A stretch of DNA of 64,000 bases from contig NZ_CP054020.1 of the NCBI RefSeq assembly GCF_013282625.1, forward strand, positions 930,001 to 994,000, in the 5' to 3' direction. Below, one piece after another: positions 1 through 8,488 of the stretch (position 1 is its first letter; every line of letters starts with the position of its first letter). Made by a program: the position numbers and the translations under genes. This DNA is from Thiomicrorhabdus xiamenensis. Its GTDB lineage: Bacteria; Pseudomonadota; Gammaproteobacteria; Thiomicrospirales; Thiomicrospiraceae. The notes below the pieces were generated by a model, which did no database searches, was not told where the DNA came from, and saw only the letters and a list, made by a program, of their open reading frames with translations.

Positions 1-356
1 TGCGTTTTATTTCGCCTAAAGCGGATGAAAATACCAAAACCTTCCGGGTCGAGATTCTTTTGCCGGATACTGCCGATATTCCCAGCGGGATCAGTGTCAC
101 CGCGGAAATTCCGAAAATGCAGGTGCAGGCGCATTTTATTTCCTCGGCGTTGCTGACCTTGAACGATAAGGGCGTAATGGGGGTGAAAACCGTCAATTCG
201 ACCCGTGAAGTCGAGTTTTATCCGGTTCAGGTGATTCAGGCGGTCAAAGACGGTATCTATATCACCGGCTTGCCGCCACAGGCACAGTTGATTGTTACCG
301 GGCAAGGATTTGTACAGGCCGGACAAACGGTCAATATCCACACAGCGGAGCAGTAA
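1..356 (+). CDS. RND efflux membrane-fusion protein (HlyD/AcrA family), C-terminal part
   Basis: The reading frame is open from the left edge (first full codon at position 3) to a TAA at 354-356, so only the last ~117 residues are present. The fragment begins RFISPKADENTKTFRVEI, the beta-barrel segment with the conserved 'TRTF/TKTF' stretch of AcrA/MexA-type periplasmic adaptors, and ends in a membrane-proximal domain (GLPPQAQLIVTGQGFVQAG). Such adaptors link an inner-membrane RND pump to an outer-membrane channel. The RND gene starts 4 nt after the stop, so the two are almost certainly co-transcribed. Signal peptide and coiled-coil hairpin lie outside the window. Substrate unknown. Confidence 0.85.
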   Translation, partial: RFISPKADENTKTFRVEILLPDTADIPSGISVTAEIPKMQVQAHFISSALLTLNDKGVMGVKTVNSTREVEFYPVQVIQAVKDGIYITGLPPQAQLIVTGQGFVQAGQTVNIHTAEQ

Positions 357-360
357 TTCC

Positions 361-3300
361 ATGAGTCTGATCGATGCCGTATTCAATCGCAGCCGGGTGA
401 TTCTGCTGACCTTTATTATGCTCATCGTCGCCGGTGCTTACGCCTACCTGTCGATACCGAAAGAGTCTTCGCCGGATGTCCCTATCCCGATATTCATTGT
501 TTCGATGGTGCATGACGGAATTTCCCCGGAAGATGCCGAAAGGCTGTTGATTAAACCGATGGAGAAAGAACTTCAGTCTCTGGATGGTTTGAAAGAGATG
601 ACGGCGACGGCGGCGGAAAATTACGGCTCGATTCTGCTGGAGTTTTCCGCCGGTGCCGATATTGATCAGGCGCTTCTGGATGTGCGTGAAAAAGTCGATC
701 TGGCCAAAGCTAATCTGCCGCCCGACACGCTTGAACCGACGGTCAACGAGATTAACGTAGCGCTGTTCCCGGTCATTTCGCTTTCCCTGTCCGGACCGCT
801 TCCGGAAAGAGAAATGGTGCGTCTGGCGCAGGACTTAAAAGACGAACTGGAATCTCTGAGCGGCGTGCTGGAAGTGGAGATTGGCGGCGATCGGGAGGAG
901 ATGATGGAAGTCATTATCGAACCGGAAACGCTGGAAACCTATCACCTCTCTTTTGATGAAGTGGTGAGTTTCTTGAGCCGAAACAATCAGTTGGTGCCGG
1001 CCGGGGCGATGGATACCGGTTCCGGGCGCATGGTTTTCAAGGTTCCCGGTGTTATCGAAAATATTCAGGATGTGCTGGAGCTGCCGATCAAAACCCATCA
1101 GGGAACAGTCGTCACTTTCAGCGATCTGGCACAGGTGCGACGTACCTATAAAGATCCGGACGGCTTCGCTCGAGTCGGCGGCGAGCCGGCACTGGTACTC
1201 GAAGTGACCAAGCGCGTCGGGGCGAATATCATTGAAACTATCGATCAGGTAAAAGCTGTTGTGGCCGAAAAGAAGAAGGGTTGGCCGGAAGCGTTGAGTG
1301 TGCACTTTATGCAGGATCAGTCTGAGCAGATCAAAACCCTGCTTGGGGATCTGGAAAATAATGTGCTGACGGCTATTTTTCTGGTCATGCTGGTGATAAT
1401 CGCGGCGCTCGGTATCAAGCCCGCGGTCCTGGTAGGGTTGGCAATACCGGGGGCTTTTCTGTCCGGCATACTGGCGTTGCAAAGTATGGATTACACACTG
1501 AATATTATCGTCCTTTTCAGCCTGATTCTCTCGGTCGGGATGCTGGTTGACGGCGCGATTGTTACGGTGGAATTGGCGCAACGAAAAATGGCTGAAGGCA
1601 TGGCTCCGAAAGAGGCTTATGCTTATGGTGCCAAGCGCATGGCCTGGCCGATTATCGCTTCCACGGCAACGACCTTGAGCGTGTTCTTTCCGCTTTTGTT
1701 CTGGCCGGGCGTGGTCGGCGAGTTCATGAAGTTTTTGCCAATCACCGTGATTCTGACACTGCTCGCATCCTTGTTAATGGCGTTGATTTTTATTCCGGTG
1801 CTCGGATCCGTGGTCTCTTCCAAGGCGGATAAAATGCCGGTGAAATCCACCTCTGAAGAGCCTGAGGATGTGGCTAAGGATCTGCAGGTGCAGGGTCATG
1901 CTGTCGGCCGTTGGACCAAGCTGTATGTCAAGGTGATTACACCGTTATTGAGTCATCCGAAAAAGGTGTTGCTGATTGCGACGCTGTTTATGGCGGCATC
2001 TTATGTTGCCTATGCGCAATTCGGCAAGGGTGTCGAGTTTTTCCCGGAAGTTGAGCCGGACTTTATTCAGGTTCAGGTGCAGGCCCGAGGCGATCTGTCG
2101 GTCTATGAGAAAGATGAGTTGCTGAAACGGGTGGAAGCGGCGATTCTGGATATTCCGGTATATAAAACGCTGTATGCCAAAACCTATAATGACGCCAGTC
2201 AGTTGCACAATGTTCCGGTGGATCTGATCGGGATTATTCAGCTGGAATTGCGCGACTGGCAGGAACGCCCGACGGCCGATGAGGTTATTCAGGATATACG
2301 TCAGCGACTGGCTTTGCTGCCGGGAATTCAGGCGCAGGTTCGCAAACAGGATAACGGTCCCTCCAGCGGTAAGCCGATTCAGGTTGAGCTCTCAGCCGCG
2401 GATTTCGCCTCTTTGAGATCCGGAGTGGAGGAAGTCCGTCAGCGTATGACGGAAATTGGCGGATTTATCGATATTGAGGATTCACGACCGATTCCGGGGA
2501 TTGAGTGGCATTTAAGAGTCGATCGTGAACAGGCGGCACGTTATCAGGTCGATATTGCTACGCTGGGCAATACCATTCAGATGCTGACCACCGGAATTAA
2601 AATTGCCTCCTATCAGCCGGACGATGCCGAGGAAGAATTGGATATCCGCCTGCGTTTTCCGGAACAGGAGCGTAATCTCGAACAGATGATGAATCTGAAA
2701 ATCCCGACCGCTTACGGCCCGGTGCCGCTTTCCAATTTTGCAGAATTCCATCCGCGACAGAAAACGTCTTTGATCGAACGGATCAATGGACAACGGGTGA
2801 TGAGTGTGCAGTCAGATGTTCCTCCCGGATTTCAGGTTGATCAGCAGCTTAATCAGCTGAAACAATCTCTGCAGGACAAGCCTTTGCAATCGGATGTCGC
2901 CATTCGCTTTAAAGGACAGGATGAAGATCAGAAGGAAGCGGCGGATTTCCTGATGAAAGCGTTTGTCAGTGCGCTGTTTTTGATGGTGGTGATTCTGGTG
3001 ACGCAATTTAACAGCTTCTATCAGGCCGGGGTTATCTTAACGGCGATCGTTTTCTCAACGGCCGGGGTTTTGCTCGGACTTTTGATTACGCAGAATCCTT
3101 TCGGGGTGGTTATGGTCGGAATCGGCGTTATCGCGCTGGCGGGAATCGTGGTCAATAATAATATCGTGCTGATCGATACTTACAATCAGTACCGGTTAGA
3201 AGGGATGGACAAAATTGCCGCGATTCAGCTGACGCTGTCGCAGCGTATGCGTCCGGTACTGCTGACGACCACGACGACCATTCTCGGGCTGATGCCGATG

Positions 3301-3462
3301 GTTCTGGCAATGACCATCGATATTCCCGGGCAGAGTATCGCTTTCGGCGCACCGTCGTCACAGTGGTGGGTGCAGCTCTCCAGCGCGATTGTCGGTGGCC
3401 TGACCTTTTCGACACTGCTGACTCTGATCGTGACTCCGTGCCTATTAGCCTTAAAGAAATAA
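361..3462 (+). CDS. RND-family efflux transporter, inner-membrane permease
   Basis: The 1033-residue protein has the usual AcrB-family length and layout: a TM helix at about 11-31, a periplasmic loop, a block of TM helices at about 340-530, a second periplasmic loop and a C-terminal TM block from about 875. The TM4 motif GMLVDGAIVTVE (near residue 399) keeps only one of the paired Asp residues of the AcrB proton relay (D407/D408); TM10 reads GIVVNNNIVLID and lacks the AcrB lysine. This points to a non-AcrB branch of the superfamily. ATG 361 is preferred over an in-frame upstream start because it follows the adaptor stop by 4 nt and begins MSLIDAVFNRSRVILL, the normal N-terminus. Substrate cannot be told from sequence. 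Confidence 0.9.
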   Translation: MSLIDAVFNRSRVILLTFIMLIVAGAYAYLSIPKESSPDVPIPIFIVSMVHDGISPEDAERLLIKPMEKELQSLDGLKEMTATAAENYGSILLEFSAGADIDQALLDVREKVDLAKANLPPDTLEPTVNEINVALFPVISLSLSGPLPEREMVRLAQDLKDELESLSGVLEVEIGGDREEMMEVIIEPETLETYHLSFDEVVSFLSRNNQLVPAGAMDTGSGRMVFKVPGVIENIQDVLELPIKTHQGTVVTFSDLAQVRRTYKDPDGFARVGGEPALVLEVTKRVGANIIETIDQVKAVVAEKKKGWPEALSVHFMQDQSEQIKTLLGDLENNVLTAIFLVMLVIIAALGIKPAVLVGLAIPGAFLSGILALQSMDYTLNIIVLFSLILSVGMLVDGAIVTVELAQRKMAEGMAPKEAYAYGAKRMAWPIIASTATTLSVFFPLLFWPGVVGEFMKFLPITVILTLLASLLMALIFIPVLGSVVSSKADKMPVKSTSEEPEDVAKDLQVQGHAVGRWTKLYVKVITPLLSHPKKVLLIATLFMAASYVAYAQFGKGVEFFPEVEPDFIQVQVQARGDLSVYEKDELLKRVEAAILDIPVYKTLYAKTYNDASQLHNVPVDLIGIIQLELRDWQERPTADEVIQDIRQRLALLPGIQAQVRKQDNGPSSGKPIQVELSAADFASLRSGVEEVRQRMTEIGGFIDIEDSRPIPGIEWHLRVDREQAARYQVDIATLGNTIQMLTTGIKIASYQPDDAEEELDIRLRFPEQERNLEQMMNLKIPTAYGPVPLSNFAEFHPRQKTSLIERINGQRVMSVQSDVPPGFQVDQQLNQLKQSLQDKPLQSDVAIRFKGQDEDQKEAADFLMKAFVSALFLMVVILVTQFNSFYQAGVILTAIVFSTAGVLLGLLITQNPFGVVMVGIGVIALAGIVVNNNIVLIDTYNQYRLEGMDKIAAIQLTLSQRMRPVLLTTTTTILGLMPMVLAMTIDIPGQSIAFGAPSSQWWVQLSSAIVGGLTFSTLLTLIVTPCLLALKK

Positions 3463-3505: not shown

Positions 3506-3766
3506 ATGAATTTACATCTCTGTCAAAAAAACTATGTGCAGATGCTGCTCGGCGAAAACCCGCTGATCTGCACCTGCCATCATGTCCCGCTTGATCAGCT
3601 GCTAGAGCAACTTCCCGAGAATCCACAGCAGGAGTCAGTCGAGGAAATGGTGCACCGTGTGCAGAAAACAACCGGCGCATCGACCGGGTGCGGTAACTGT
3701 TTGAGCCGTGTGCAGGGGGTGGTTGAATGTTACCGCCTTAAACCGGAGATATTTAAAGAGACTTAG
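3506..3766 (+). CDS. BFD-like [2Fe-2S]-binding small protein
   Basis: An 86-residue protein with C22-x-C24 (ICTCHHV) and C62-x2-C65 (TGCGNC) separated by 37 residues, the cysteine pattern of the bacterioferritin-associated ferredoxin (BFD-like) [2Fe-2S] domain. In known cases this domain donates electrons for iron release or serves as a domain in reductases. It lies between an efflux pump and a metal-uptake locus and is convergent with the DtxR-family regulator; the two stop codons share bases (TTAG, 3763-3766). No strong ribosome-binding site is visible before ATG 3506; ATG 3542 is a shorter alternative that still keeps all four cysteines. Iron metabolism is likely, but a partner ferritin is not in the window. 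Confidence 0.7.
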   Translation: MNLHLCQKNYVQMLLGENPLICTCHHVPLDQLLEQLPENPQQESVEEMVHRVQKTTGASTGCGNCLSRVQGVVECYRLKPEIFKET

Positions 3767-4446
3767 GCTTTGACCTGCAAGGCCATGGCCAGACGGTAGT
3801 CGATGGCGTGCAGCGCCTTGCCGTCGACCTCGATCAGTAAGGGGCCGTTGAGCGGAGCGCGGTTTTTAATCTCGATTTGGGCACCGATATGCAGTTCGAT
3901 TGATGTCAGATAGCGCAGTTCTTCCGGGGTACGGTTTTTGATGCGTTCAAGAATGACCGGCTGATGCAGTTCGATCTCGGACAGGGGGGTCAGGTTTTTG
4001 CGTTCGATTTTGCCGTCCACACTCGGAATCGGTGAGCCGTGCGGATCCTGTGTTGGCTGGCCGAGATCCTGCCACATACGGTCCACCAGTTTGTCGGAGA
4101 GGTAATGTTCCAGCGTTTCCGCTTCTTCATCCACCTCATCCCACAGATACCCCAGGCGTTCGACCAGATACAGTTCGAGAATCCGGTGATTACGGATCAT
4201 CTTCATCGCCACTTTTCGTCCATGTCCGGTCAGGGTCACGCCATAATAAGGTTCATATTCCAGATAGCCCTGTTCGGCCAATTTTTTAAGCATATTGGTT
4301 ACCGAAGCCTGCGATACGGCCAGACGTTCGGCGATGTCTTTGGTCTGAACGCCCTTGTCTTCGCGAGTATTGTCTTCCAGCTTATAGACAATTTTGAGAT
4401 AGTCTTCCCATGCCTGAGACGGCGTGTTTTTCTGTACCTGAGACAT
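3763..4446 (-). CDS. DtxR/MntR-family metal-dependent transcriptional regulator
   Basis: A 227-residue protein with an N-terminal winged helix (about 12-75, VSQASVTNMLKKL), a metal-binding/dimerisation domain (about 76-145) and a FeoA/SH3-like C-terminal domain (about 150-227). Metal-site residues visible are His in NHRILELYL and the E-x2-E-H set in AETLEHYLS. Glu stands where iron-type DtxR has Cys102, as in manganese-type MntR; the N-terminal MntR Glu11 position is Lys (EDYLKIVY). The family motif DPHGSPIP follows. ATG 4446 is chosen because it overlaps the upstream permease stop by one base (TAATG); an in-frame start further upstream would lie inside that permease gene. Last gene of a five-gene uptake operon, like troR in Treponema troABCDR, so it probably represses this operon with Mn or Fe. 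Confidence 0.85.
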   Translation of the reverse strand: MSQVQKNTPSQAWEDYLKIVYKLEDNTREDKGVQTKDIAERLAVSQASVTNMLKKLAEQGYLEYEPYYGVTLTGHGRKVAMKMIRNHRILELYLVERLGYLWDEVDEEAETLEHYLSDKLVDRMWQDLGQPTQDPHGSPIPSVDGKIERKNLTPLSEIELHQPVILERIKNRTPEELRYLTSIELHIGAQIEIKNRAPLNGPLLIEVDGKALHAIDYRLAMALQVKA

Positions 4447-5366
4447 TAAGCGCTTTCTCCCGATTGGAGTTGTTTGGCGTAGTGTTGCTGCTGAATCCAT
4501 TTACGGATCTGAATCACCAGCAGAGTTAAAGCCAGAAGTGCACCGGCGCTGACCGCAATGGACGCGGCGATCGAACTGTCCAGCCAGTAGGAAAGGGCAT
4601 AGCCGATCCAGACCGAACCTTGCGAGTAGGCGACAGCCAGCCAGAGCATTCTCTTGAGAGAGGAGGCAAGCAGATAAGCGCTGCTGGCGGGAATAATCAA
4701 CAGGGCGACCACCAGAATGGCTCCGACGGCTTCAAAGGAGGCAACCGTGGTCATCGAAACCAGTGTCATCAGGAAGTAGTGCCAGAAGGTGATATTGATG
4801 CCCAGAGAAACCGCCAGACTCGGATGGAAAGTTACCGTTTTCAGGCGTTCAAAGCCGAGCGTGATACTGAAAGCGACGAGCGAAAAAACGATCAGAATCA
4901 ACCAGAAAGCGCGTGGCCCCAAATCGGTTCCGGTTTCCATATCGCCCCAGATGACGGTGTCGAAAGGGACGAAGGCAATTTCGCCATATAAAACACATTC
5001 CTGATCGAGATCGATATGTCCGGTATAAAGTGATACCAGAATGACGCCGATCGAGAAAAACAGGGTAAAGACGATCCCGATACTGGCATCGCTTTGCAGG
5101 CGGCTGACCTTATGCAGGCTCTCGCTGAGCCAGGCAGTAAGCAGGCCGATAATGACCGCACCGGTCAGCATAACCCATAGAGTATTGGTTCCGGCCAGCA
5201 GATAGGCGAGCACGATACCGAGCAGAACGGAATGAGAAATGGCATCACCCATCAATGCCTGACGCCGCAGGATCAAAAAGACACCGACCATGGCACAGGA
5301 TGCAGCAACCAACGATGCCGTGGCAATAATCCACAGATCGAGAATCCAGTTTTCAAGATTCAGCAT
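4446..5366 (-). CDS. Metal ABC transporter permease (ABC-3 family, TroD/ZnuB-like)
   Basis: A 306-residue integral membrane protein with about 8-9 hydrophobic helices, starting LENWILDLWIIATASLVAAS; the segment RRQALMGDAISHSVLLG is the conserved signature of Mn/Zn/Fe ABC-3 permeases. It would form the transmembrane channel with the other permease of the operon. It starts 2 nt after the stop of that permease and its stop overlaps the regulator start by one base, indicating translational coupling. Metal specificity (Mn, Fe or Zn) cannot be told from the permease alone. Confidence 0.88.
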   Translation of the reverse strand: MLNLENWILDLWIIATASLVAASCAMVGVFLILRRQALMGDAISHSVLLGIVLAYLLAGTNTLWVMLTGAVIIGLLTAWLSESLHKVSRLQSDASIGIVFTLFFSIGVILVSLYTGHIDLDQECVLYGEIAFVPFDTVIWGDMETGTDLGPRAFWLILIVFSLVAFSITLGFERLKTVTFHPSLAVSLGINITFWHYFLMTLVSMTTVASFEAVGAILVVALLIIPASSAYLLASSLKRMLWLAVAYSQGSVWIGYALSYWLDSSIAASIAVSAGALLALTLLVIQIRKWIQQQHYAKQLQSGESA

Positions 5367-5368
5367 GC

Positions 5369-6724
5369 TTACAGTTCCTCAATCGTATTTTTTGGCGGGA
5401 TCGGCTGGCCGTGCGGGTCGGACAGGCGTTGCATCAGTTCGGCGACGATCTGTTCTTCATGTTCCTGATTCAGAATATGCTCCATATGCTCGGCCTGCTG
5501 GTGCACCTGCTCCGAAGTCAAATCGGCATGCTGGCTCAGATAACTCTCCCACAGGCGATGGCGACGGGTCAGTTCGATCGCTCGTCTTAAACCGGTTTCA
5601 CTCAAGGCAAAACCGTCGCCCAGTTCGCGAACCAGCCCTTGTTTCTGCAACTGCTTCAAGGTCTGCTTCAGTGTCTGAACCTGGATATTTCGCAGGGCAA
5701 TAATCTGCGCAACGGTAAAATCATTGCGTTTAAAGTGGTCGCGTTCCAATAGTTTATACAGCGTGCGCAGAATATTTTCCTGAGCGACTCTGAGGCGCAA
5801 TCTGCGGTAATCCAGATAACGTTTGATCAGTCCGTTTTGCGGTGCGACCAGAAAGGAGACGAAAAATACCAGAGATAGACTGACGACAATCCACGGGCCG
5901 GTCGGCATAGCCGGAGCGATATAGGAAATCTGTGCGCCGATGGAGGCGCTGAGCGCTCCGAAGATCCCTGCCAGAAGCAGCAAGTAACTCAGTTGATGGC
6001 TCCAGAATCGTGCGGCTGCGATCGGCGTTAACAGGATCGCGGCCATCAGCACGACGCCGACCAGTTGCAGACCGACCACCACCGAGAGCACAATCATCAG
6101 TGCCAGTAGAAATTCATAGAACCTGACGGAGATACCGAGCGTTTGCGCATACAGTCGGTTGAAGGCGATCAGACGGAATTTATCGAAAAACAGGATAACG
6201 GTGATCAGCACGGCCGACGTAACATACACCAGCAGATGGATGTCTTCGGAGGTAATCGCGGCGGCCTGACCGAAAAGCAGTTTATCCAGTCCGCTCTTGT
6301 TTGGCATATCGGTACTTTGAATCAGCGACAACAGCATCAAACCCAGAGCGAACATAAAGGAAAGTGTAATTGCCAGCGCGGCATCTGGTTTGATTTTGGT
6401 GTTTTTCGGCAGCCAGTCGATAATCCAGAAACCGAGCAGGCTGCTGAGCAGGGCGCCGCTGAAGATCACTTCTGCATCCCGGCTGCCACTGAGCAGAAAC
6501 GCCATCATTACGCCGGGCAGAGCGGCATGCGCCAAGGCATCGCCGAGCAGAGAGCGTTTGCGCAGGAAGGCGAAAGCGCCGATTACCGAGGCACTCATGC
6601 CCAATAGCAGGCTGCCGACGAGAACCCAGGTGGCGTTGACGTCTTCAAACGACCAGAAAAGCGCCAGCTGATCAAAGGTCTGTTGCCAGACGGAAGCGTC
6701 CGAATATACTTCAAAGCCTTGCAT
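5369..6724 (-). CDS. Metal ABC transporter permease fused to a C-terminal DtxR-like domain
   Basis: 451 residues, against ~280-300 for a normal ABC-3 permease. Residues ~1-290 are a complete permease with the RKRSLLGDALAHAALPG signature. Residues ~305-451 form a DtxR-type winged helix (VQTLKQTLKQLQKQGLV), a dimerisation/metal segment with RRHRLWESYL and AEHMEH, and the motif DPHGQPIP, matching DPHGSPIP of the stand-alone regulator two genes downstream. The Glu/Glu/His set of the MntR-type metal site is kept; no FeoA domain follows. The gene starts 2 nt after the ATPase stop. The extra domain may sense cytoplasmic metal to gate transport, or tether DNA binding to the membrane; both are inference. 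Confidence 0.87.
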   Translation of the reverse strand: MQGFEVYSDASVWQQTFDQLALFWSFEDVNATWVLVGSLLLGMSASVIGAFAFLRKRSLLGDALAHAALPGVMMAFLLSGSRDAEVIFSGALLSSLLGFWIIDWLPKNTKIKPDAALAITLSFMFALGLMLLSLIQSTDMPNKSGLDKLLFGQAAAITSEDIHLLVYVTSAVLITVILFFDKFRLIAFNRLYAQTLGISVRFYEFLLALMIVLSVVVGLQLVGVVLMAAILLTPIAAARFWSHQLSYLLLLAGIFGALSASIGAQISYIAPAMPTGPWIVVSLSLVFFVSFLVAPQNGLIKRYLDYRRLRLRVAQENILRTLYKLLERDHFKRNDFTVAQIIALRNIQVQTLKQTLKQLQKQGLVRELGDGFALSETGLRRAIELTRRHRLWESYLSQHADLTSEQVHQQAEHMEHILNQEHEEQIVAELMQRLSDPHGQPIPPKNTIEEL

Positions 6725-6726
6725 GG

Positions 6727-7518
6727 TTAATCCTGATCGTGTGCCTGATTAAGCTGGCTGCGGTATAGCTGCTCGGTCATTTCGTTGAGCAGAGACAGGC
6801 GGCCGCCGTAGGTTTTATTCAGATTGTCTTGAGTCAAAACCTCGTCTACCGGCCCGGCGGCGATTAATCTGGCATTGATTAAAATGGCGTAGTCGTAATA
6901 TTCGTGAACGGTATTCAGGTCGTGGTGGACACAGACCACGGTATTGCCTTGAGCTTTAAGCTGTTTGAACAATTCAATAATTGCCTTTTCCGTGGCGACA
7001 TCAACACCGGCAAAAGGTTCATCCATCAAATACAGGCTGGCCTGCTGCGCCAGAGCTCTGGCCAGGAAGACGCGTTGTTGCTGACCGCCGGAAAGTTGCG
7101 AAATCTGACGGTCGCGGAAATCCGACATCTGCAGATCCCACAGCGCCTTTTCAGCGATATCCCGGTCGTTCTGGTTCGGTCTTTGCCAGAATTTCAGCTG
7201 GCCGTGACGGCCCATCAGCACCACATCCATTACATCAATCGGAAAATCCCAGTCAATTTCTTCGCGCTGCGGAACATAAGCGGTGGTCAGGCGTTTTTTA
7301 TCCAGCGATTCGCCGAAGAACAGAGCCTGTCCCTGAATGACTGGCGTCAGCCCCATGATTCCCTTAAGCAGTGATGATTTGCCGGCGCCGTTCGGTCCGA
7401 TAATCGCGACGGTTTTTCCGGCCGGAACCTCGAAGCTGACATCGGTCAAAACCGGTTTGTGGTGATAGCGTATGCTGAGTTGTTCCACTTTCAACGGAAT
7501 GGCGCTTCGATCTGTCAT
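6727..7518 (-). CDS. Metal ABC transporter ATP-binding protein (TroB/ZnuC/MntB-like)
   Basis: A 263-residue ABC ATPase. Walker A is GPNGAGKSS (about residues 39-47), the Q-loop lies in [13 protein letters not shown], the signature is LSGGQQQR and Walker B is [12 protein letters not shown], followed by the switch His in CVHHDL. The [14 protein letters not shown] stretch is typical of manganese/zinc/iron (TroB/MntB) ATPases rather than sugar or peptide importers. It is the second gene of the operon: its start directly abuts the stop of the binding-protein gene, and its own stop lies 2 nt before the fused permease. Confidence 0.93.
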
Positions 7519-8436
7519 TTAGTGGCTTCCCTGTTCTGTTGTTTTGCCCAGCAGGCCGTTGCGGATGGTATGAACGTTATGCTCGACCATTTTGATATAG
7601 GTATCTGCATCCGAGCCTTTGACTCCCATTGCATCGGAATAGAGTTCGCCGCCGATTCTCAGCTGCTTGCCCTCGGCCTGAACCCCTTTGACCAGCGATT
7701 CGATAAATTTCGGCGAGACGCTGGATTCAACAAACACCGCGGAGATATCACGGGCGACAATCACATCCTTGAGCTGCTTGATATCCTGCAAGCCGAATTC
7801 CCCGGCAGTACTGATGCCTTGCAGCCCCATGACTTCTAGATCATAAGCTTTGCCGAAGTAGCCGAAAGCGTCGTGTGCGGTAATCAGTACGCGTTTGGCC
7901 TGAGGCACTTTCTGCATTTCCTGTTTAACCCATTGATGCAATTCATTCAGTCTGGTGCGGTATTGCTCGGCATTACGCTGATAGAAAGCGGCGTTTTGCG
8001 GATCTTTTGTCGCCAGAGTTTTTTGTACCTGCTGTGCGGCCAGTTCCCACAGGCTGACATCAAACCAGACATGTGGATCATGGAGTTTGTCGAAAGCAAT
8101 TAAACGTTTTTCCGGGAAGTTTTCAGTGACGGCGACAACGGTCTTGCGGCGTTGCATTTTTTGCAGAATCGGTTGCAGTTTGCCTTCCAGATGCAGACCG
8201 TTGTAGAAAATAATGTCCGCTCGGCTTAATTTTCGGACGTCTCCCTGTGTCGCCTTGTACAGGTGAGGGTCGACTCCCACACCCATCAGCGCCTGTACTT
8301 TAGCTTTATCCTTGGCGATCTGGTTAACCAGATCGGCGATCATGCCGGTCGTTACCGTGATCTTTAATTGTGCATGGGCCAGCGGGCTTAAGCCGATTAG
8401 GGTAATAAACAGGGTGCTCAAGAGCAACTTTGCCAT
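7519..8436 (-). CDS. Periplasmic metal-binding protein (TroA/ZnuA family)
   Basis: A 305-residue cluster A-I solute-binding protein with a classical signal peptide ending at about AHA-Q (residue 22/23) and no lipobox. Probable ligands are H58 (VDPHLYK), H122 (HDPHVWFD), H188 (ITAHDAFGYF) and an Asp at 276 or 278 (GSDADTY), the three-His-plus-Asp set of Treponema TroA, which binds Mn and Zn. PsaA-type Mn proteins have Glu in place of the third His. The long His-rich loop of ZnuA is missing. With a DtxR/MntR-type regulator in the operon, Mn or Fe is more likely than Zn, but this is inference. Confidence 0.88.
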   Translation of the reverse strand: MAKLLLSTLFITLIGLSPLAHAQLKITVTTGMIADLVNQIAKDKAKVQALMGVGVDPHLYKATQGDVRKLSRADIIFYNGLHLEGKLQPILQKMQRRKTVVAVTENFPEKRLIAFDKLHDPHVWFDVSLWELAAQQVQKTLATKDPQNAAFYQRNAEQYRTRLNELHQWVKQEMQKVPQAKRVLITAHDAFGYFGKAYDLEVMGLQGISTAGEFGLQDIKQLKDVIVARDISAVFVESSVSPKFIESLVKGVQAEGKQLRIGGELYSDAMGVKGSDADTYIKMVEHNVHTIRNGLLGKTTEQGSH

Positions 8437-8474: not shown

Positions 8475-8488
8475 TTAGTTGTGGCTAA
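8475..8488. promoter_or_regulatory. Candidate operator for the DtxR-family regulator
   Basis: The inverted repeat TTAG-N6-CTAA (8475-8488) sits between the candidate promoter and the binding-protein start, just downstream of the predicted transcription start. Its half-site resembles the TTAG ends of DtxR-family boxes. This position suits repression by the metal-loaded regulator encoded at the end of the operon. The core is short and other AT-rich dyads occur nearby, so the call is tentative. Confidence 0.35.

Follow-up and report, generated by a model that had tools for sequence, protein, structure and literature searches.

A DtxR-like domain on a manganese/iron ABC permease of Thiomicrorhabdus xiamenensis as a candidate post-translational metal sensor

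Gene organization of the importer locus

The window analyzed here is a 64,000-nucleotide stretch of Thiomicrorhabdus xiamenensis DNA (contig NZ_CP054020.1), and all coordinates below refer to it. It contains a minus-strand operon with this order of genes: a substrate-binding protein, an ABC ATPase, a permease fused to a DtxR-like domain, a further permease and a stand-alone DtxR regulator. The first gene (7519..8436) codes for a ZnuA/TroA-type substrate-binding protein of cluster A-I (PF01297, E 8e-81) and the second (6727..7518) for the ATPase (PF00005), whose nearest NCBIfam models are Mn/Fe importers of the MntA type. These are followed by the 451-residue fused protein (5369..6724), as defined by its reading frame, Pfam matches and an AlphaFold2 model, and by a second ABC-3 permease bearing no extra domain (4446..5366; PF00950, E 3e-50). 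With PF01297, PF00005 and two copies of PF00950 encoded together, the operon has the complement of a cluster A-I importer. The last gene (3763..4500) codes for a DtxR/MntR regulator with a FeoA domain (PF01325, PF02742 and PF04023). Its listed start at 4500 is probably too far upstream: the ATG at 4446 (residue 19), which overlaps the stop codon of the second permease as TAATG, agrees better with the homologous regulators.

Two plus-strand genes converge on this operon. A 1056-residue reading frame (292-3462), by eye an RND-type efflux pump, adjoins the metal-import genes, and a short frame of 86 residues (3506-3766) with a match to the BFD-like [2Fe-2S] domain (PF04324, E 2e-6) is convergent with the gene for the stand-alone regulator; a link of the latter to iron storage is possible.

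Domain architecture and predicted structure of the fused protein

The first-pass annotation placed the fused protein at 5369-6724, and at these coordinates we find a single minus-strand ORF of 451 codons with no internal stops. Its transmembrane part, residues 32-293 (5846..6631, minus strand), is an ABC-3 permease (PF00950, E 6e-62), and its C-terminal part, residues 309-449 (5378..5800, minus strand), combines a winged helix with metal-binding and dimerization helices. Assignment of this C-terminus to the DtxR family, also proposed at first pass, is borne out by both profile and structure searches. The metal-binding and dimerization domain Fe_dep_repr_C (PF02742) is recovered at residues 376-443 with an E-value of 1e-19 and a score of 70.6 bits (cut-off 27). 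PF01325, which covers the N-terminal DNA-binding part of the same regulators, reaches only 16 bits, below its cut-off of 26. The AEHMEH and DPHGQPIP motifs remarked on earlier lie at residues 411-416 and 436-443, respectively, and the contrast drawn with the neighboring regulator likewise holds: Pfam detects a FeoA/SH3 domain in the stand-alone protein and none in the fused one.

The AlphaFold2 model of the fused protein is confident throughout (mean pLDDT 93.9, pTM 0.88). Structure comparison aligns its residues 16-311 with the permease PsaC (7kyp, Z 34) and residues 310-449 with two-domain DtxR (Z 18.5, rmsd 2.1 over 136 residues), so that both the winged helix and the dimerization helices of the DtxR-family fold are present in the model. 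Sequence matches in the PDB divide in the same manner, the front half retrieving PsaC-type permeases and the back half ScaR, MntR, IdeR and DtxR. The permease thus resembles that of the PsaBC importer of Streptococcus pneumoniae in fold, with about 32% identity, but the PsaC chains in 7kyp have no C-terminal regulatory domain. In the model, only about five residues, predicted with high confidence, separate the last transmembrane helix (275-293) from a long helix (299-328) that doubles as helix 1 of the DtxR fold, and no disordered or flexible linker is predicted between the permease and the DtxR-like domain.

Phyletic distribution and origin of the fusion

The fusion is present in 38 of the 63 genomes of the order and is therefore not an assembly artifact; 35 of these 38 also encode a stand-alone regulator. 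The gene for the latter lies inside the importer operon in a few genomes only, mostly in the clade of the window, and at other chromosomal sites otherwise. That such fusions exist elsewhere, as the first-pass annotation had supposed, agrees with the literature: the architecture is already known, and orthologous permease-DtxR fusions have been reported in 11 phyla (PMC5599777). We scanned representative genomes with a DNA pattern and obtained at least 116 matching stretches; the matches listed include fusions from Planctomycetota, Bacteroidota, Verrucomicrobiota, Chlamydiota, Spirochaetota, Bdellovibrionota and candidate phyla. Among the sampled Chlamydiota, 166 of 192 genomes have the domain, nearly always in fusion-length frames among the matches listed, and the stand-alone regulator is essentially absent. 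The fusion is not a general feature of Pseudomonadota: no match of fusion length scored above the family's cut-off in any of the 299 sampled genomes besides that of the window, and the fusion is therefore rare in this phylum outside the family of the window. Plasmid-borne relatives among the matches listed are just ordinary regulators or fall in unannotated places.

An origin by duplication within the operon, which had been raised at first pass, is contradicted by the domain tree. All 30 stand-alone domains fall on one side of a branch with 99% support and no fused domain falls there; hence, the domain of the window is not a duplicate of the neighboring regulator. Sister permeases without the domain exist, and the domain is accordingly an optional add-on that is dispensable for the permease. 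In the permease tree, the domain-less proteins of two genomes (G012 and G013) nest inside the starred clade of domain-bearing permeases; the domain was thus probably lost at least once within the family while the permease and its operator stayed.

Divergent constraints on the metal site and the recognition helix

Seven putative metal ligands of the fused domain, N317, H389, E393, H408, E412, E415 and H416, are encoded in the segment 5477..5776 (minus strand) and are invariant in all 37 family members. They align with DtxR positions 10, 79, 83, 98, 102, 105 and 106; asparagine at the equivalent of position 10 (N317) is also the residue found in Bacteroidota stand-alone regulators. The ligands are nearly invariant in the fusions of other phyla too, and in a set of 54 fused proteins drawn from several phyla PF02742 is detected in 53. 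The metal ligands and dimer helices of the fused domain are thus under constraint. E412 stands where DtxR has Cys102, an exchange shared with the Mn-responsive members ScaR and SloR, and by this analogy Mn would be the likelier signal.

The DNA-reading part presents a different picture. The equivalent of the recognition helix (residues 347-362; 5639..5686, minus strand) and the wing have the highest site rates in the fused protein, the canonical helix motif is found in none of the 37 family members and PF01325 is detected by Pfam in none of the 54 fused proteins from several phyla. The combination that marks the DtxR/MntR family of transcription factors, namely PF01325 together with a conserved recognition helix, is therefore missing from the fused domain. 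In the 25 genomes that hold both proteins, mean pairwise identity over the recognition helix is 0.375 for the fused versus 0.848 for the stand-alone protein, and over the metal helices 0.63 versus 0.83. Phylogenetic site rates give a recognition-helix to metal-helix ratio of 3.89 in the fused family (permutation p 5e-5) versus 1.03 in the stand-alone regulator (p 0.46). In genus Chlamydia the same ratio is 1.62 (p 0.10), a value with a wide error as the sample comprises 16 sequences.

The corresponding identity ratios extend this pattern across phyla: they range from 0.70 to 0.98 in stand-alone groups versus 0.32 to 0.52 in the fused groups of every phylum examined, whereas genus Chlamydia, with an overall divergence similar to that of the window's family, has a ratio of 0.87. 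Thus, of the fused groups examined, the one that retains its recognition helix is also the one for which DNA binding has been reported. These sequence comparisons point to selection on the fused domain as a metal sensor, and not as a reader of DNA, in most lineages. The relaxed constraint could instead reflect co-divergence of operators and helix. Loss of positive charge as a mark of lost DNA binding is not seen: the helix keeps a net charge of +2.8 versus +1.4 in the stand-alone protein of the family, and some contact with nucleic acid is consequently possible.

An operator that follows the stand-alone regulator

A palindrome of the form TTAGYC-NN-GRCTAA occurs upstream of the gene for the substrate-binding protein, usually 40-120 bases away. 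In the window, a position-weight scan places the operator-like palindrome TTAGCCACAACTAA at 8475..8488 (minus strand), approximately 50 bases upstream of the start of that gene. It matches the slightly relaxed pattern TTAGYCNNRRCTAA exactly, and the 2.59 Mb genome has just one other exact match. This second site (C1:855317) adjoins a GTPase gene whose product has a pair of GTPase motifs and by eye resembles EngA/Der; no link to metal was seen there, and as a metal-regulated site we discarded it as probably a chance match.

Scored with a position-weight matrix, the operator is present in all 31 fusion operons of genomes with a stand-alone regulator, one of the sites (L058) being weak. No operator was detected in the three genomes with the fusion only (G006, G022 and G040), one of which is 93% complete and another of which has a broken substrate-binding gene. 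The operator is also present in 10 of 10 operons from related genomes, all left out of matrix building, whose orthologous permeases (44-61% identical) end without the domain. Presence of the operator is associated with the stand-alone regulator (Fisher p 8e-5, or 3e-4 with the weak site counted as absent), and no association with the fused domain is seen (Fisher p 1.0). From these patterns, the predicted operator goes with the stand-alone regulator and not with the fused domain. One of the fusion-only systems (L065, in G022) has its substrate-binding gene split in two frames and a fused domain without the DPHG tail, and looks to be decaying.

Comparison with known systems

The closest known counterpart is YtgCR (CT069) of Chlamydia, a permease-DtxR fusion whose C-terminal part is reportedly released by cleavage and then serves as an iron-dependent repressor (PMC5599777; PMC7755916). 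The first-pass statement that the function of such fusions is not established overlooks this reported repressor (PMC5599777). The protein of the window has the same architecture, an ABC-3 permease with a C-terminal DtxR-like domain in an ABC metal-importer operon; as in YtgCR of C. trachomatis, the metal-binding helices are conserved and the fusion is the first permease in a series of substrate-binding protein, ATPase and two permeases. The two differ in that here the operon itself includes a gene for a stand-alone regulator, whereas Chlamydiota essentially lack one, and in that the recognition helix is relaxed here and constrained in genus Chlamydia. DNA binding and cleavage have been reported for YtgR.

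In its transcriptional part the locus resembles other Mn/Fe importer operons, such as TroABCD-TroR of Treponema and those under MntR, ScaR or SloR, which combine a DtxR-family repressor with an upstream dyad operator (PMC2628430). In those the regulator is only a separate protein, whereas here an additional DtxR-like domain resides on the permease. An extra cytoplasmic C-terminal domain on an importer has its precedent in MetNI and ModBC, where C-terminal domains of the ATPase bind the imported substrate and stop transport, and trans-inhibition is established (PMC10710835). Their sensors are of unrelated fold and located on the ATPase, whereas in the present case a DtxR fold would act from the permease and inhibition is presumed.

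Functional interpretation

Given that the metal site is kept while the DNA-reading part drifts freely, direct throttling of the importer is the most likely role of the fused domain. We consider it rather probable that the domain is a DtxR-derived metal sensor, which no longer reads DNA and provides post-translational feedback on its own importer. On this proposal, a rise in cytoplasmic Mn2+ (or Fe2+) would fill the predicted site formed by the seven ligands, and the metal-filled domain would change shape or dimerize. The helical connection between the domain and the last transmembrane helix is short and rigid in the model, and through it this change would hinder the ATPase-permease cycle, resulting in trans-inhibition. 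Transcription would be controlled separately by the stand-alone MntR-like protein acting at the palindrome. With a sensor on the importer alongside a separate regulator, the operon would use one protein fold for two brakes, a slow one on transcription and a fast one acting post-translationally. The first-pass suggestion that metal sensing shuts the transporter directly is thus the preferred one on comparative evidence, with the inhibition itself being what we infer. The conserved metal site, the relaxed helix, the operator that tracks the regulator and the rigid attachment seen in the model favor feedback. Counted against it are the positive charge of the helix, the reported DNA binding of Chlamydia YtgR despite the same architecture, and the single domain per heterodimeric transporter here, which makes dimerization within one transporter hard to envisage.

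A first alternative is that cleavage frees the domain from the permease and lets it serve as a metal-dependent transcriptional repressor in the manner of YtgR. In its favor, architecture and gene order match those of YtgCR, which reportedly is cleaved and binds DNA in an Fe-dependent manner, and the recognition helix is positively charged. Yet the helix and wing evolve fastest, with the canonical motif in 0/37, and genus Chlamydia, the experimentally supported case, constrains the helix far more. Moreover, the operator is missing in fusion-only genomes and present where the fusion is missing, a dedicated regulator gene lies in the same operon and the model has no disordered linker. Taken together, we regard a released repressor as rather unlikely.

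Two further possibilities leave the domain on the membrane. It might, as the other first-pass suggestion has it, capture or release the stand-alone regulator there by hetero-dimerization and thereby link transporter occupancy to transcription: the dimerization helices are conserved in both proteins, and in the window's clade the regulator gene adjoins the fusion. This coupling finds no support here and is improbable in the face of a regulator gene that lies elsewhere in most family genomes, fusions without any stand-alone regulator in Chlamydiota, G006, G022 and G040, and the placement of the two proteins on separate, well-separated branches. Alternatively, the domain might take metal leaving the channel and pass it on or store it, with no regulatory role, as conserved ligands on the cytoplasmic side of the importer could imply. 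A chaperone would hardly need the entire winged-helix and dimer fold that is kept, and the domain can go while permease and operator remain, making such hand-over or buffering an equally slender prospect.

Permease-DtxR fusions have so far been interpreted through a single example, the chlamydial repressor YtgR. Should the feedback proposal be correct, the fold of a transcription factor would have been converted into a brake that acts directly on metal import, and a second, faster layer of Mn/Fe homeostasis would reside in some 150 residues. Many domains annotated as iron-dependent repressors would then need re-reading, and the reach of the YtgR model a fresh look.

DtxR-like domains on a second importer and other architectural variants

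The same scan recovered, among the matches listed, proteins of about 340 residues with an N-terminal transmembrane helix, a DtxR-like domain and FeoA domains. PF01325 is not recognizable in these membrane-anchored proteins, and their recognition helix is degenerate, with an identity ratio of 0.31. In the loci examined, their genes are flanked by one for a stand-alone DtxR and by those of a split FeoB, in the order stand-alone DtxR, anchored DtxR-like/FeoA protein, FeoB GTPase and FeoB membrane domain; all four were checked in L098 (2872-6872) and L167 (999-4881). Further operons of this type are L146, L183, L161, L166, L082, L086, L127, L113, L114, L078, L085, L162 and L185, and the type as a whole occurs in Flavobacteriia, Ignavibacteria, Chloroflexota, Acidobacteriota, Gemmatimonadota and Verrucomicrobiota.

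That a DNA-blind DtxR-like domain is also attached to another importer, unrelated to the first, supports a role of the domain in regulating transport. This leads to a broader and more tentative proposal, which we consider plausible without as yet expecting it to hold: DNA-blind DtxR-like domains might be widespread as post-translational sensors of metal and have been added to at least two importers that are unrelated to each other, namely to one or both permeases of ABC Mn/Fe systems and, in membrane-anchored form with FeoA, to split FeoB, with YtgR being the exception and not the model.

The permease fusions also show architectural variants. In some Planctomycetota and Verrucomicrobiota, each of the two importer permeases ends in a DtxR-like domain, and the two domains come from separate branches of the domain tree (L092, L095, L097, L105, L106, L108, L118, L154, L163, L175 and L177). 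Some Bacteroidota fusions (L073, L142, L180 and L181) have about 495 residues; in the two scanned with Pfam, L073 and L181, the C-terminal part also has a FeoA-like domain and thus amounts to a nearly full-length regulator on the permease.
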